From an uncultured Tateyamaria sp. (GTDB lineage: Bacteria; Pseudomonadota; Alphaproteobacteria; Rhodobacterales; Rhodobacteraceae), in the NCBI RefSeq assembly GCF_947494755.1, contig NZ_CANLVZ010000010.1, positions 62,001 to 126,000 of the forward strand: a DNA stretch of 64,000 nucleotides, in the 5' to 3' direction. The notes beneath the pieces are model-generated. The model saw only the letters and a list, made by a program, of their open reading frames with translations. It was not told where the DNA came from and ran no database searches. Positions within the stretch are counted from its first letter, which is position 1; each line of letters starts with the position of its first letter. This document shows positions 44,532 to 48,583 of this stretch, piece after piece. The position numbers were made by a program, and so were the translations under genes.

Positions 44532-44690
44532 CTAACGTTTGCGCCGCTTGCCCGGCACCTTTGAGGCAAAGCCGGGCGGGCGCTTGGCCACCCATTCAGC
44601 GAATTTGGCGAGGCGAGGATGGGCACGCAACGCCTCGGGTGTGGCATAGTCGCGGGCCAGTTCCGTCTCTGTCAGGGTCGCGTGAATTTC
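44532..44690 (-). pseudogene. 3' fragment of HNH endonuclease gene interrupted by the element
   Basis: A 52-codon C-terminal fragment reads EIHATLTETELARD, continues ATPEALRAHPRLAKF and ends KVPGKRRKR. It has no start codon and begins exactly at the inner side of the left terminal repeat. It joins in frame and sense to the N-terminal fragment at 48444-48583, which ends at HHIC; small Rhodobacterales HNH proteins read HHIC-x-x-EIHA from memory, so about two codons seem missing. Confidence 0.8.
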
Positions 44691-44715
44691 CGGCCTTATG
44701 TATCAAACGCACCAA
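44691..44715. repeat. Left terminal inverted repeat of the element
   Basis: A 25-bp sequence CGGCCTTATGTATCAAACGC followed by ACCAA. It is the exact reverse complement of 48419-48443 on the right side. Confidence 0.9.
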
Positions 44716-44748
44716 AACATCTGACACGTGATCCGTTACAACGTTGTC

Positions 44749-45132
44749 ATGACACGCAGATACTTCCGCCCGCTTAAACCCAAGACCGTGATCGACACGC
44801 TGCACTACGTCCGACAGGAAATGGTGCGCGAGGAACGCGATGGGCTAGAGCATGTAGATTACCTTCTTAGGTTATACGGTGCCGAGCCTATGGCGCTCAA
44901 CATGCCAGCAAAGACGCCCAAGGACTTCCGCAAGGGCGAGCTGCGTCGGATGGTTCTTGAAACGCTTAGGAGTGGCCCGCAGACAGGGGCGGACCTTGCG
45001 AATGCGATCCAATCTTGCAAACCCAACCTAACCTATCAACAGGTTTACAGGCGGGTCTACGTATGTCTATGGGGTCTGAAAAAGGCAGGCCGAGTTAGAC
45101 ACACTGGGCGATTTTGGCTAGCGCCCAACTAG
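44749..45132 (+). CDS. Passenger protein with probable winged-helix C-terminus
   Basis: A 127-residue protein of no recognised family, 33 bases inside the left terminal repeat. The C-terminal ~70 residues (ELRRMVLETLRSGPQTGADLA, then LTYQQVYRRVYVCLWGLKKAGRVRH) resemble a winged helix with a recognition helix and wing, suggesting DNA binding, perhaps at the element ends. The start is ATG 44749, or GTG 44728 in frame. It is read inward from the left end. Confidence 0.6.
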   Translation: MTRRYFRPLKPKTVIDTLHYVRQEMVREERDGLEHVDYLLRLYGAEPMALNMPAKTPKDFRKGELRRMVLETLRSGPQTGADLANAIQSCKPNLTYQQVYRRVYVCLWGLKKAGRVRHTGRFWLAPN

Positions 45133-45150
45133 TCTCGCCATCACGCAAGA

Positions 45151-45726
45151 TCAGAACGATCCATTCTTACGCATGTGCAACACATCTAGTCGGCATATAA
45201 ACCTGACAATATCTGGATGAAGACCATGATGCGCAGCTATCTGATCTTCGTCCATCTCCGCAGCTATCATTGGCTCTACCACGCTGTGCGGTAAAATCAT
45301 CTCAGCCGCAGCCAGTAGGCCGTCGTCGTCTGCCGCCACTCTCGGTGTATAGGGCATGTCCACGCTGCTGAGTTCGTCGAATAGCTGTGAGACTGCCAGA
45401 GGTGTAGATGCGTATTTTTCAGGGGGTGTGAAGCAGTGCATCATCTCTTTTACCGCTACAAACTCCTTCCAATGCGGGTGCAAGTCTCGGTGGACGAAGA
45501 CATGTGCTACGTCTGGTTCTTCCCCACTACTCACCAATCTTACAAACATACCATCTATGGGACGTTCAAGCATTTCGACGGATAGATTGATTCGTCCAAT
45601 TGATGAGTGTTCAGATGCCTCGACCGCGTCCCAAATTTCTTGGACACGCATAGCAGCGTTCATCGACCTGCCAGATTTGGCAAGACGATACTTTCGCAAT
45701 TGCTCAGAAATGTGAGAAAACTTCAT
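45151..45726 (-). CDS. IrrE-like protein with degenerate metal motif
   Basis: A 191-residue protein. The middle stretch VAVKEMMHCFTPPEKY resembles the HExxH helix of ImmA/IrrE peptidases, with Lys in place of the first His, and LLAAAEMILPHSVV recalls the AA-x-x-LMP that follows in that family. The C-terminal part (GLHPDIVRFICR) looks like a helix-turn-helix. If so it is probably not an active peptidase. It follows the small protein at 45795-45971 by 68 bases on the same strand. Confidence 0.5.
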   Translation of the reverse strand: MKFSHISEQLRKYRLAKSGRSMNAAMRVQEIWDAVEASEHSSIGRINLSVEMLERPIDGMFVRLVSSGEEPDVAHVFVHRDLHPHWKEFVAVKEMMHCFTPPEKYASTPLAVSQLFDELSSVDMPYTPRVAADDDGLLAAAEMILPHSVVEPMIAAEMDEDQIAAHHGLHPDIVRFICRLDVLHMRKNGSF

Positions 45727-45794
45727 GGTGTGACCCTACAATATTGCTAGGGACGCACCGATCATGTTGTGTTCATCCAGCTACACGGCACTAC

Positions 45795-45971
45795 TTAGCC
45801 GAGTGTGGACGCATCTTCAAGGATTTCAGCGTGTTTAACAATGTTGGCCATGTTCGCATCAACATCAGATGCTTTTTGGCCATCAATGTCATCAACATTC
45901 ATGATAAATTTGATATCACGCACCTCATATCCAGGGTGTTTTTCCTGGAGTGCTGCGAAAAGTTTTTCCAT
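45795..45971 (-). CDS. Small acidic protein with a strong Shine-Dalgarno (58 aa)
   Basis: MEKLFAALQEKHPGYEVRD begins this 58-residue frame; it is acidic, starts with a likely helix and has no known family. AAGGAGG stands at 45978-45984, six bases before the ATG, one of the best ribosome binding sites in the window. It is immediately upstream of the IrrE-like gene. Codon use is A/T-rich like the element. Overlapping plus-strand frames in this stretch are shadows. Confidence 0.72.
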   Translation of the reverse strand: MEKLFAALQEKHPGYEVRDIKFIMNVDDIDGQKASDVDANMANIVKHAEILEDASTLG

Positions 45972-46184
45972 TGTGCACCTCCTTGTGCGTGTTAGATTAG
46001 TGGTCGCTTAGCACGACCATTGCAAGTCCACTAGACATCAATCACGACATTTTGGCAAAAATACGTCGCGGAAGCTCCTTTTCCTCTCAAAAGAACTTCT
46101 CATGATCATTGAAGGTTCCGTATGAACTTACACCAAAAGATATAACACATTGTTAACAAATTTTCAATGATCGCTAGCAAACGG

Positions 46185-47153
46185 TCAGCCAGTGGAGTGC
46201 CTTTGCCAGTACCCCTTCCAGTTGCGCGACACAGGCGCGGCCATTGAGTTACTTACTACAATCTGCGCCAGAGTACCGTTGTCTGTGCGGCGGTTGTCTT
46301 CCAACCAAGCGGCGTGGTTCGCATACTGATGCAGGTACTGCGGGCTAACATGGTGGTGCTGGCCCTGCACCATGCGGCGCAGGCGTGAGAAATAACTTTC
46401 CACCATGTTCGAGTGCTTGCCGTGGTCGCTGTAAATCTCTGAGTGGTTCACGCGGTCCACGTGATAGCCAGCGTGCAGCATATCCCAATGGCTGGCCTCG
46501 TCCGCTGACATAGTTGCCATGCGGCTTACGTTCTCGTTTGCCAGCGCAACGCCTTCGCCCTCAGACATGCGAACGAATGGCAAAGTGCGGCCCTCACGCT
46601 CCCGCAGGGCAATGACGACACGGCGCTTGCCTGTCTGGTTCACTTTCAAGCGGCGGTCCTTGCGGTCTGCCTTGGCGTTCTCAGGGCGGATGTGACCACC
46701 GAAATACGCGCCATCAATCTCAACATGGCCCTGCAACACTTCGCCCGTCTGGACCTCTTGGGCCATCGCCTCGCGCAGCTTGTGGGCCAGCACAAAGGCA
46801 GTCTTGTACTGGCAGTCCAGATCACGGCTCAGTTGAACCATGCTCACGCCCTTAGAGGCGTTCACGATGATGCAGATCGCGCCCAGCAGGTCCACAAAGT
46901 CCATCTTGCGCGAGGCGAAAATGGTGCCGCTGGTTACGCTGAACTGGTGCGCACATGCCTTGCACTTGAATTTGCGGCGCGTGGTGATCTTGTAGGTTTC
47001 GTGGTTGCTGCAACGGGGGCAAACCGCCTCACCGTCTGTTTCAGGCCAGCGCATCTGGCAGAACGTCTCGTAGGCCGCATTTTCGCCAGCCTTGTAGATC
47101 GACCGCAGTGAAAGCGTCCGAGAAGCTGCTGAAAGGAGGAAATGCTGGGCCAT
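46185..47153 (-). CDS. IS1595-family transposase (ISXO2-like)
   Basis: A 322-residue transposase. N-terminal zinc ribbon: VCPRCSNHETY and KCKACAHQF, followed by SVTSGTIFASRK. The DDE-type catalytic domain opens with GHVEIDGAYFGGH; the second acidic residue is probably in MSADEASHWDM; the terminal ISXO2-like N/E motif is HSNMVESYFSRLRRM. GGHI and NRR-like tails agree with the family. It sits in the middle of the element, not at an end. The only terminal repeats are those at 44691 and 48443. Confidence 0.92.
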   Translation of the reverse strand: MAQHFLLSAASRTLSLRSIYKAGENAAYETFCQMRWPETDGEAVCPRCSNHETYKITTRRKFKCKACAHQFSVTSGTIFASRKMDFVDLLGAICIIVNASKGVSMVQLSRDLDCQYKTAFVLAHKLREAMAQEVQTGEVLQGHVEIDGAYFGGHIRPENAKADRKDRRLKVNQTGKRRVVIALREREGRTLPFVRMSEGEGVALANENVSRMATMSADEASHWDMLHAGYHVDRVNHSEIYSDHGKHSNMVESYFSRLRRMVQGQHHHVSPQYLHQYANHAAWLEDNRRTDNGTLAQIVVSNSMAAPVSRNWKGYWQRHSTG

Positions 47154-47257
47154 TGTACTCTCTGTGATTACCTATATCATAAATATAGTACATACATATC
47201 ACGTTTACAATGGCAAATATCACATTTATAGTGCCTTTATCATATATAGAGAGCGCC

Positions 47258-47464
47258 ATGCCAGATCAGACTGATTGGGAAGCCAAAGCGGCGAACATGT
47301 TGAAAGCAGAGTTGAAGCGGCAGGGCGTTACGTACGCACAGCTTGCTGAGTTAATTGGGGATAAAGAGCCGAACGTCCGCAACAAACTGTCGCGCGGCAA
47401 GTTTAGTGCAGCCTACATGCTAAAATGCTTGAACGCCGTAGACGTCGGGGAACTTAGAATTTAG
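47258..47464 (+). CDS. Small helix-turn-helix protein (DUF6471-like)
   Basis: A 68-residue protein (DWEAKAANMLKAELKRQG, then YAQLAELIGDKEPNVRNKLSRG) with an Xre-like helix-turn-helix. ATG 47258 is favoured over 47210. The gene is divergent from the transposase and converges on the ImmA/IrrE gene, overlapping its end by 11 bases. It probably represses the element's own genes or forms a regulator pair with the peptidase. Confidence 0.75.
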   Translation: MPDQTDWEAKAANMLKAELKRQGVTYAQLAELIGDKEPNVRNKLSRGKFSAAYMLKCLNAVDVGELRI

Positions 47465-47945
47465 TCGCTGGAGCGCCCACTCTGATTGACATGGCGCTCT
47501 CAGAAACTTGAAAAATCTCTGCCAAAGCGGCCACCGATGTGGTTCCACTCGCGATGTATTGATTAAGTAATACGCGAGGCATCAGAATGTCCGCTGCTAG
47601 CTTGTTGGCTTGCGCCTCCATGGCGTTACTCAACCGACTACGGTAAAGTCCATCATCAACAATACCATCGCCGATGAACCGTCTGTGCAGAATGAAATGA
47701 GCGATCTCATGGGCTGTAGTGAACCGGCGGCGATTGATGTGGTGGCCCTTGTTCACATAAATCGCATATCCAGATGAGCCGCCTTGATCAGCAGACTTTA
47801 CGATCTTTCCAGATAAGTCGTCAGGCCAGTTCGGAACGTGCCAAACTTTCAGGCCAAGATCATCGGCGATAGCGACAGTTTGTACCGGAGGCGAGGCCTG
47901 GTGTCGCTGAATGACCGATAGTTGCTCTGGATAAGTAAGGTTCAT
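47454..47945 (-). CDS. ImmA/IrrE-family metallo-endopeptidase
   Basis: A 163-residue protein. The zinc motif is AHEIAHFILHRR near residue 78, and the third ligand Glu and LMP motif lie in AMEAQANKLAADILMPRVLL, all in family order. A short HTH-like C-terminus (VSESAMSIRV) follows. ImmA cleaves phage or ICE repressors; IrrE cleaves DdrO. ATG overlaps the stop of the upstream two-TM gene, so both are cotranslated. Confidence 0.9.
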   Translation of the reverse strand: MNLTYPEQLSVIQRHQASPPVQTVAIADDLGLKVWHVPNWPDDLSGKIVKSADQGGSSGYAIYVNKGHHINRRRFTTAHEIAHFILHRRFIGDGIVDDGLYRSRLSNAMEAQANKLAADILMPRVLLNQYIASGTTSVAALAEIFQVSESAMSIRVGAPATKF

Positions 47946-48358
47946 TCGTCTTTCGCTGGCGTTGCGCCCTCTATAGGCTGATCGTCTAAGCCGTAGTCAC
48001 CGCTATGTTCGGGTTTGCTGTTGTCGTCTCTCGCCCTTACGGCGTCAAGTATGCTGAGTTGCTCTGATACAGTGTCTTTCGCCTCTTTCTCTGCTGCCTC
48101 TACGGCTGCACGAATGGCAGCATTCTTGATCTCAGTGTAACCGAAAAGGCCTAGAGCTGCGAGGATAAAGCCCACCAGCACCAATATCATCTCAAGTATC
48201 GTGACGTTCAAGGCCAGCGCCTCAACAGTGTAACCAGTAGGACTGACGGGCATGAGGGCAGTTACTTCAGAGGCGCTATACCAGTAGACAAAGAAAGCAA
48301 GATTTGCTGCCCCGACAATGGCGATGAATAAGATCAGTAGTCTTTTCGCCAACTTCAA
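47942..48358 (-). CDS. Two-TM membrane protein with coiled coil
   Basis: A 138-residue protein: membrane helices at about residues 7-27 and 52-72, then a Glu/Lys/Ala-rich coiled coil (AAVEAAEKEAKDTVSEQL) and an acidic tail. No family recognised. Start appears to be TTG at 48358. It is cotranslated with the ImmA/IrrE gene (ATGA overlap) and lies 60 bases inside the right terminal repeat; a role as its membrane target or partner is inference. Confidence 0.65.
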   Translation of the reverse strand: MKLAKRLLILFIAIVGAANLAFFVYWYSASEVTALMPVSPTGYTVEALALNVTILEMILVLVGFILAALGLFGYTEIKNAAIRAAVEAAEKEAKDTVSEQLSILDAVRARDDNSKPEHSGDYGLDDQPIEGATPAKDE

Positions 48359-48418
48359 GACGCAAACCCCAGAAACAACTCACCATCGGATATCTGAAAT
48401 CACAGGATACTGGAAGGC

Positions 48419-48443
48419 TTGGTGCGTTTGATACATAAGGCCG
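48419..48443. repeat. Right terminal inverted repeat of the element
   Basis: Exact reverse complement of 44691-44715, reading TTGGTGCGTTTGATACATAA then GGCCG. The outer end directly adjoins the N-terminal part of the HNH gene. Confidence 0.9.
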
Positions 48444-48583
48444 CAGATGTGGTGCAACAGCACCGTTGGCCCGCCTTTGCCACCTTTCAGCTTGGGGATC
48501 AGGTGATGCAGGCTTTGCGGGGCATCTGCCGGGATGGGGCGTCGGCAAAGCGGGCACAGGGGGACGGTCTTTGGATCGGACAT
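48444..48583 (-). pseudogene. 5' fragment of HNH endonuclease gene
   Basis: Starts MSDPKTVPLCPLCRRPIP with AAGGG before the ATG, and carries the Cys pair of the zinc finger and HHLIPKLKGGKGGPTVLLHH; ends at HHIC where the right terminal repeat begins. Read-through would give 24 foreign residues to a stop at about 48380. The C-terminal part lies 3.75 kb away at 44532-44690. Confidence 0.82.

Follow-up and report, generated by a model that had tools for sequence, protein, structure and literature searches.

Insertion sites of IS1595-type transposons follow a small end gene, probably encoding a winged-helix target selector, rather than the transposase

What decides where a transposon lands is the question raised by a 64,000-nucleotide stretch of DNA from an uncultured Tateyamaria sp. 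(contig NZ_CANLVZ010000010.1 of assembly GCF_947494755.1; the whole stretch is called the window), in which an IS1595-family transposon of 3753 bp, bounded by exact 25-bp inverted repeats, splits a small gene for an HNH protein. The gene nearest the left repeat, reading inward, encodes a small protein that we call the selector. We find that among relatives of this element target choice follows the selector gene and not the transposase, with exceptions that are counted below. Judging from the sequence comparisons, a modular and exchangeable winged-helix selector probably decides the target of this IS1595-type transposon.

The interrupted gene is intact in related genomes. Both flanks of the element translate as halves of one small HNH protein, and the N-terminal half was found in 24 of 61 genomes searched, the window's own included. 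The site is uninterrupted in 22 of the other 23 genomes; the exception (G014, of the same genus as the window) carries a related element at the same codon. The syntenic DNA of G009, the closest relative, can be aligned with both flanks as far as the junction, where just 7 of its own bases lie between the two alignments. The initial annotation, made from the sequence alone, had a single transposon splitting an HNH gene, with both halves on the minus strand. The split itself was borne out, since the gene reads through in those 22 genomes, and related genomes with the same gene order but no intact HNH gene at this site, which would have refuted it, did not turn up among those searched; the description was incomplete in that the window's element is one of eleven that interrupt the gene at the same codon. 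Three intact relatives score 54.6–57.8 bits (E about 1e-15 to 1e-14) against the NCBIfam HlpB model NF058586, which indicates homology, but they do not reach its equivalog cut-off of 130 bits, and for that reason we name the host gene HlpB-like only. In Bacillus subtilis, hlpB is reportedly a stand-alone HNH nuclease-like gene.

Many of these elements insert at recurrent sites. We surveyed the best 80 of 212 confirmed transposase relatives, mostly from Rhodobacteraceae, with further loci from other genomes (L numbers denote loci), and compared the flanks at the insertion point for the 76 sites with both ends. The largest group, of 29, lies in a dispersed intergenic repeat; nine insertions hit the HNH codon, four are associated with a GT2 glycosyltransferase gene, three stand where upp ends and two interrupt a comM-like gene, another two share a further site, and the remaining 27 are singles. 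Of the GT2 four, L130 was left unlabelled, since its sole link to the group is a weak match displaced by 15 bp. The eleven elements at the HNH codon are the nine seen from both sides and two seen from one (L097, the same locus as L063, and L072), and they are spread over several genera. Both orientations occur at one site, in ratios of 7:3 for HNH (n = 10), 2:1 for upp and 15:12 for the intergenic repeat (n = 27), and the insertions are therefore independent.

The target genes were named by Pfam matches on the flank halves of single members (Mg_chelatase/ChlI for L119, Glyco_tranf_2_3 for L154 and L156, UPRTase for L109), which we used because longest-frame translation across empty sites is unreliable in GC-rich DNA. 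The comM insertion point lies after the residues LFLDELPE, taken for the Walker B motif. In the upp insertions (L104, L109 and L110) the duplicated 8-mer includes the stop codon and the gene stays complete, which resembles the behavior of Tn7, an element that inserts beside glmS. The commonest landing site, the intergenic one, has a core such as GATATTTC; across the intergenic sites of 27 elements we observed a dispersed motif made up of a C/G-rich stretch, then GATATTT, then an A/G-rich stretch. Two further loci are complex. At L115 two elements stand side by side, with a second transposase and a second selector fragment adjoining and a left flank that ends in another inverted repeat. The HNH-site copy of genome G278 is split over two contigs (L072, positions 1–908, and L203, positions about 224–248), and no transposase was found between its selector fragment and the far repeat, where a tRNA-Ala is predicted.

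The selector gene is nearly universal among these elements. A profile of the end gene detects a homolog or a fragment in 79 of the 80 related loci, and only one end is visible in the sole locus lacking a match (L105). The best match lies 30–110 nt inside its end and faces inward in 73 of the 78 loci in which that end was found; the exceptions are L156 (128 nt), the broken L127, L115 (best match in the neighboring element), L090 (0.9 kb inside) and L136, in which the gene is moved and inverted.

If the selector sets the target, target labels should change rarely along the selector tree. Indeed, when 47 elements were labelled by target and label changes were counted by parsimony, the selector tree required 6 changes, compared with a mean of 18.76 and a minimum of 14 over 2000 shuffles of the labels (none as low as observed), while the transposase tree required 18 (shuffled mean 18.81; 669 of the 2000 shuffles gave as few or fewer). 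With the intergenic class removed, the remaining 20 elements took 4 changes on the selector tree (0/2000) and 8 on the transposase tree (128/2000). A run with 48 elements and 300 shuffles agrees with these results. Loci with broken or short selectors (L115, L127, L135, L150) as well as L072 and L105 were left out of the joint test, and L149 was dropped as a duplicate of L139. A single clade of the ten HNH-site transposases was rejected (approximately unbiased test, p-AU 6e-62, perhaps partly owing to the very divergent L029); a single clade of the ten HNH-site selectors was not (p 0.71).

Individual pairs of elements show the same separation. L107, in the intergenic repeat, and L109, at upp, are 97% identical over the terminal 72 bp and 87% identical in transposase DNA, but their selectors are only 45% identical and their targets differ. 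The converse is seen in the window's element and L029, which have different repeats and transposases only 57% identical, but share selectors of 70–73% identity and the same target codon. In L136, where the selector has moved and inverted, the target is unchanged. Other types of selector are associated with the Walker B motif of comM, with the stop codon of upp, with the GT2 motif or with the dispersed intergenic repeat. Pairwise identities were compared for the 73 elements with both proteins and readable ends: a target is shared by 99 of the 113 selector pairs at 50–60% identity and by 13 of the 18 at 60–70%, while sharing never rises above 24% in any bin of transposase identity.

Several observations weigh against the selector as the determinant of the target. 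Of the 61 selector pairs above 70% identity, just 5 have the same target; 53 of the 61 fall within one type, that of L085. The 12 selectors of this type are 69–92% identical (11 compared), yet the sites they go with lack homology, and the motif common to these sites is marginal, since 2 of 100 random sets gave one as good (L088 and L091 were not in this motif test). L152 lies outside the HNH site, and the selector nearest to its own is that of L147 (47% identity); L114 lies outside the GT2 site with a selector 79% identical to that of L154. L100 and L125 have a site in common but a selector identity of only 39%. Moreover, both trees are quick searches with many weak forks, and we drew the target groups ourselves from flank similarity. 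Beyond the close family, a search across the class turned up selector-like proteins in 19 of 385 genomes, including the window's own. Among 20 loci fetched, the insertion residue of comM recurs in three (L187, L188, L196) and that of the GT2 gene in one (L193); in L189 and L191 these genes are interrupted, but elsewhere. Prediction of the target from the nearest queried selector was right in 3 of 5 comM-type loci and in only 1 of 7 GT2-type loci, which counts against the selector as well. The selector–target rule holds strongly for close relatives but only weakly for distant ones. It is because of these counted exceptions that we hold the selector reading with good but not full confidence, and its extension to a whole transposon class, given below, with slightly less.

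The small protein is modelled with confidence as a winged-helix protein. The AlphaFold2 model of the window's selector (predicted local distance difference test score, pLDDT, 94.9) has two N-terminal helices and a winged helix. Foldseek with this model gives weak matches, mostly to winged-helix proteins, and none at an E value of 0.001 or better; a profile search of the PDB sequences with the selector alignment gives chance-level matches only (best E 0.095), and PHROGs gives only scattered weak matches to selectors. The window's selector has no match in Pfam, PHROGs or PADLOC at the thresholds used, and its NCBIfam matches are all below cut-off; among 75 members of the family, Pfam yields only scattered winged-helix matches. 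A second branch is made up of the comM, GT2 and L085 types; profile comparison shows it to be homologous to the first (probability 98.1, E 7.6e-14), and its model (pLDDT 81) places a long N-terminal helix ahead of the winged helix. In the predicted fold of its C-terminal part and in weak profile and fold matches, the selector resembles winged-helix proteins of the PadR/ArsR/LmrR type, but unlike them it is encoded inside a transposon and has no confident family or Foldseek match.

How else might these associations arise? The anatomy of the window's element would by itself be compatible with an ordinary IS1595 transposon that struck the HNH gene by chance. We rejected this explanation because eleven elements, from several genera and in either orientation, interrupt one and the same codon, and it has next to no chance of being right. 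Many insertion sequence (IS) transposases show some target preference, and if the transposase alone chose its sites, the winged-helix gene would be no more than cargo or a regulator of the usual kind; part of the intergenic class could then be put down to a bias toward A+T-rich 8-mers like the intergenic core. However, the target labels are random on the transposase tree, doing no better than shuffled labels, and for this reason the transposase was discarded as the determinant. The division of HNH site versus all others takes 10 changes on that tree (2000 of 2000 shuffles as low), and transposase pairs at least 94% identical share a target in only 3 of 30 cases. We regard site choice by the transposase alone as very unlikely. 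The end sequence was likewise tried as a determinant and discarded, as it has no association with the target.

A determinant other than the selector protein might be inherited along with its gene, in the form of a guide RNA or the non-coding strip beside it, which adjoins the selector and could travel with it. However, the mean longest exact match of an element to its own 60-bp target is 9.16 (69 elements), compared with 9.05 for other-target elements (552 comparisons), which argues against a simple base-pairing guide while leaving room for one split into very short segments. Where the strips of a pair are similar and both members have a labelled target, 42 pairs have the same target and 52 have different ones, L107 and L110 have identical strips and different targets, and L136 keeps its target without the usual arrangement; we give a guide or strip as small a chance as the transposase alone. 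Slightly less credible still is that elements at the same site exchange end genes by homologous recombination through shared flanks, so that selector likeness merely follows the site. The selector does adjoin the flank, and the elements are clearly mosaic, but opposite insertions place the selector on the other flank, and yet it belongs to the same clade (L101 with the window and L029, L133 with L060, and L109 with L104 and L110). Such recombination would also leave unexplained how eleven elements reached one codon.

With a protein selector as the preferred reading, the elements would be cut-and-paste transposons with two core genes, the remaining genes being cargo or regulators. The IS1595-type transposase, whose catalysis is presumed from its family, would act on inverted repeats of the GGCCTTATGTA type and make staggered 8-bp insertions, a duplication seen in relatives. 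The selector, usually encoded just inside one end, would bind a particular double-stranded sequence at the insertion point and bring or activate the transposase there. Because insertions occur in both orientations, we propose that it may act as a symmetric assembly. The window's version would pick a conserved codon run of the HlpB-like gene, which the insertion splits, and a change of target could come about by swapping or evolving the selector gene.

The window's own copy departs from its relatives at one junction, and the initial annotation overlooked this absent duplication as well as the repeated use of the site. Target-site duplications of 8 bp were sought in relatives, of which 71 of 80 loci are readable at both ends: 66 are perfect, 2 match at 7 of 8 positions and 3 have none. 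Judged by these duplications, the element has C and G as its outermost bases. The window's element has no such duplication; the left copy of CAGATGTG and 7 more host bases are gone (15 bp). Two events would fit this loss, a deletion of adjacent DNA by the transposase and a recombination of two elements sitting at neighboring sites; the loss may have occurred during or after insertion, perhaps through a deletion of the first kind. The same odd junction is present on the selector side (~9871) of L147, a diverged element in another genome, in which the duplication and 7 further bases are missing and host sequence restarts at GAAATTCA.

The features of the element and its flanks are collected in Table 1.

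Table 1. Features of the transposon and the interrupted gene in the window
Feature	Coordinates	Strand	Basis or remark
HNH gene C-half, HlpB-like	44532..44690	-	translation; comparison with relatives
Transposon, 3753 bp	44691..48443		inverted repeats; outer limits (outermost bases C and G) from relatives' 8-bp duplications
Inverted repeat, selector end	44691..44715	+	exact 25-bp match
Proposed target selector, 127-residue winged-helix protein	44749..45132	+	open reading frame (ORF; earlier GTG start listed at 44728); family presence; target prediction; AlphaFold2
Cargo ORF, 191 residues	45151..45726	-	IrrE/M78 resemblance weak at most, 12.3 bits (cut-off 22)
Cargo ORF, 58 residues	45795..45971	-	no family in Pfam, NCBIfam or PADLOC
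IS1595-family transposase, 322 residues, uninterrupted	46185..47153	-	PF12762, PF12760, NF033547
DUF6471 helix-turn-helix protein	47210..47464	+	PF20075, 77.1 bits; internal ATG at 47258
ImmA/IrrE-type metallopeptidase, CapP-like	47454..47945	-	PF06114, 55.7 bits; PADLOC capP, 81.2 bits
Cargo ORF, 138 residues	47942..48358	-	hydrophobic stretches, read from sequence alone
Inverted repeat, cargo end	48419..48443	-	exact 25-bp match
Single remaining 8-bp target copy CAGATGTG	48444..48451	+	second copy absent at left end
HNH gene N-half, HlpB-like	48444..48583	-	translation; comparison with relatives

The 24-bp core of the repeats, allowing up to 3 mismatches, occurs in just two places in the 4.1-Mb genome assembly, which are the two ends of the element. 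The transposase matches DDE_Tnp_IS1595 (PF12762) with 124.2 bits (cut-off 27), the N-terminal Zn_ribbon_IS1595 (PF12760) with 52.4 bits (cut-off 25.4) and NF033547 with 139.8 bits (cut-off 75). The annotated anatomy therefore held: both repeats were located where a 3.75-kb transposon had been drawn, none of its ends was found apart from the element in this genome, and the IS1595 assignment of the transposase agrees with DDE and zinc-ribbon matches above cut-off. The element had also been called a transposon with cargo, not a simple IS, and six further plausible genes do lie between the repeats. The claim of at least six passengers needs amendment, as the gene at the left repeat is the best predictor of the insertion site and no mere passenger. 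As to the cargo, in the region 47454–48358 the M78 peptidase resembles CapP of defence-system regulators (PADLOC, 81 bits), and the peptidase and the neighboring 138-residue ORF are also present in L060, at 91% and 82% identity.

The element shares with the IS1595 family the DDE_Tnp_IS1595 domain, the zinc ribbon and the inverted repeats; 8-bp duplications are seen in its relatives but not in the window's own copy, where one of the two repeats is deleted. IS1595 members are described as usually carrying a single transposase gene and making an 8-bp target-site duplication (PMC8101967); the elements studied here differ in a second, nearly universal gene that goes with target choice. The open-licence literature, a scope outside which subscription papers such as Siguier 2009 fall, yielded no report of target selectors in the IS1595 family. 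The closest parallel is found in Tn7-like transposons and Tsy elements, for which Faure et al. 2023 (PMC10293859) describe a separate, exchangeable protein (TnsD/TniQ, TnsF) that goes with the attachment site, and TnsF too uses the comM Walker B motif. Target choice by a separate, swappable protein would be the common feature, with TnsD and TnsF the nearest counterparts. The elements differ in having an IS1595 transposase and a small winged-helix selector; the seven proteins of the window's element gave no Pfam or NCBIfam match to a TnsB-type transposase, TnsC or TniQ, nor to a tyrosine recombinase. By analogy, the window's system would work like the selectors of Tn7-like elements, but it is not Tn7-like.

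More broadly, we think it likely that the elements represent a widespread class of IS1595 transposons in Alphaproteobacteria in which one exchangeable winged-helix protein, without an AAA+ adaptor or guide RNA, steers a simple DDE transposase and re-targets it by gene swap. Its use of the comM Walker B motif would have arisen independently of that by Tn6022 and Tsy, as a convergence, and it would use the end of upp much as attTn7 is used. Site choice by a separate transposon protein is already known from Tn7-like elements, which need several proteins. If the selector reading is true, a system of just one transposase and a small selector would illustrate how a single step can confer site specificity or alter it, and the elements would provide a natural set of many selector–target pairs from which winged-helix recognition could be learned and which might become a compact tool for targeted insertion. 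The repeated interruption of the same genes in these bacteria would then have an explanation as well.

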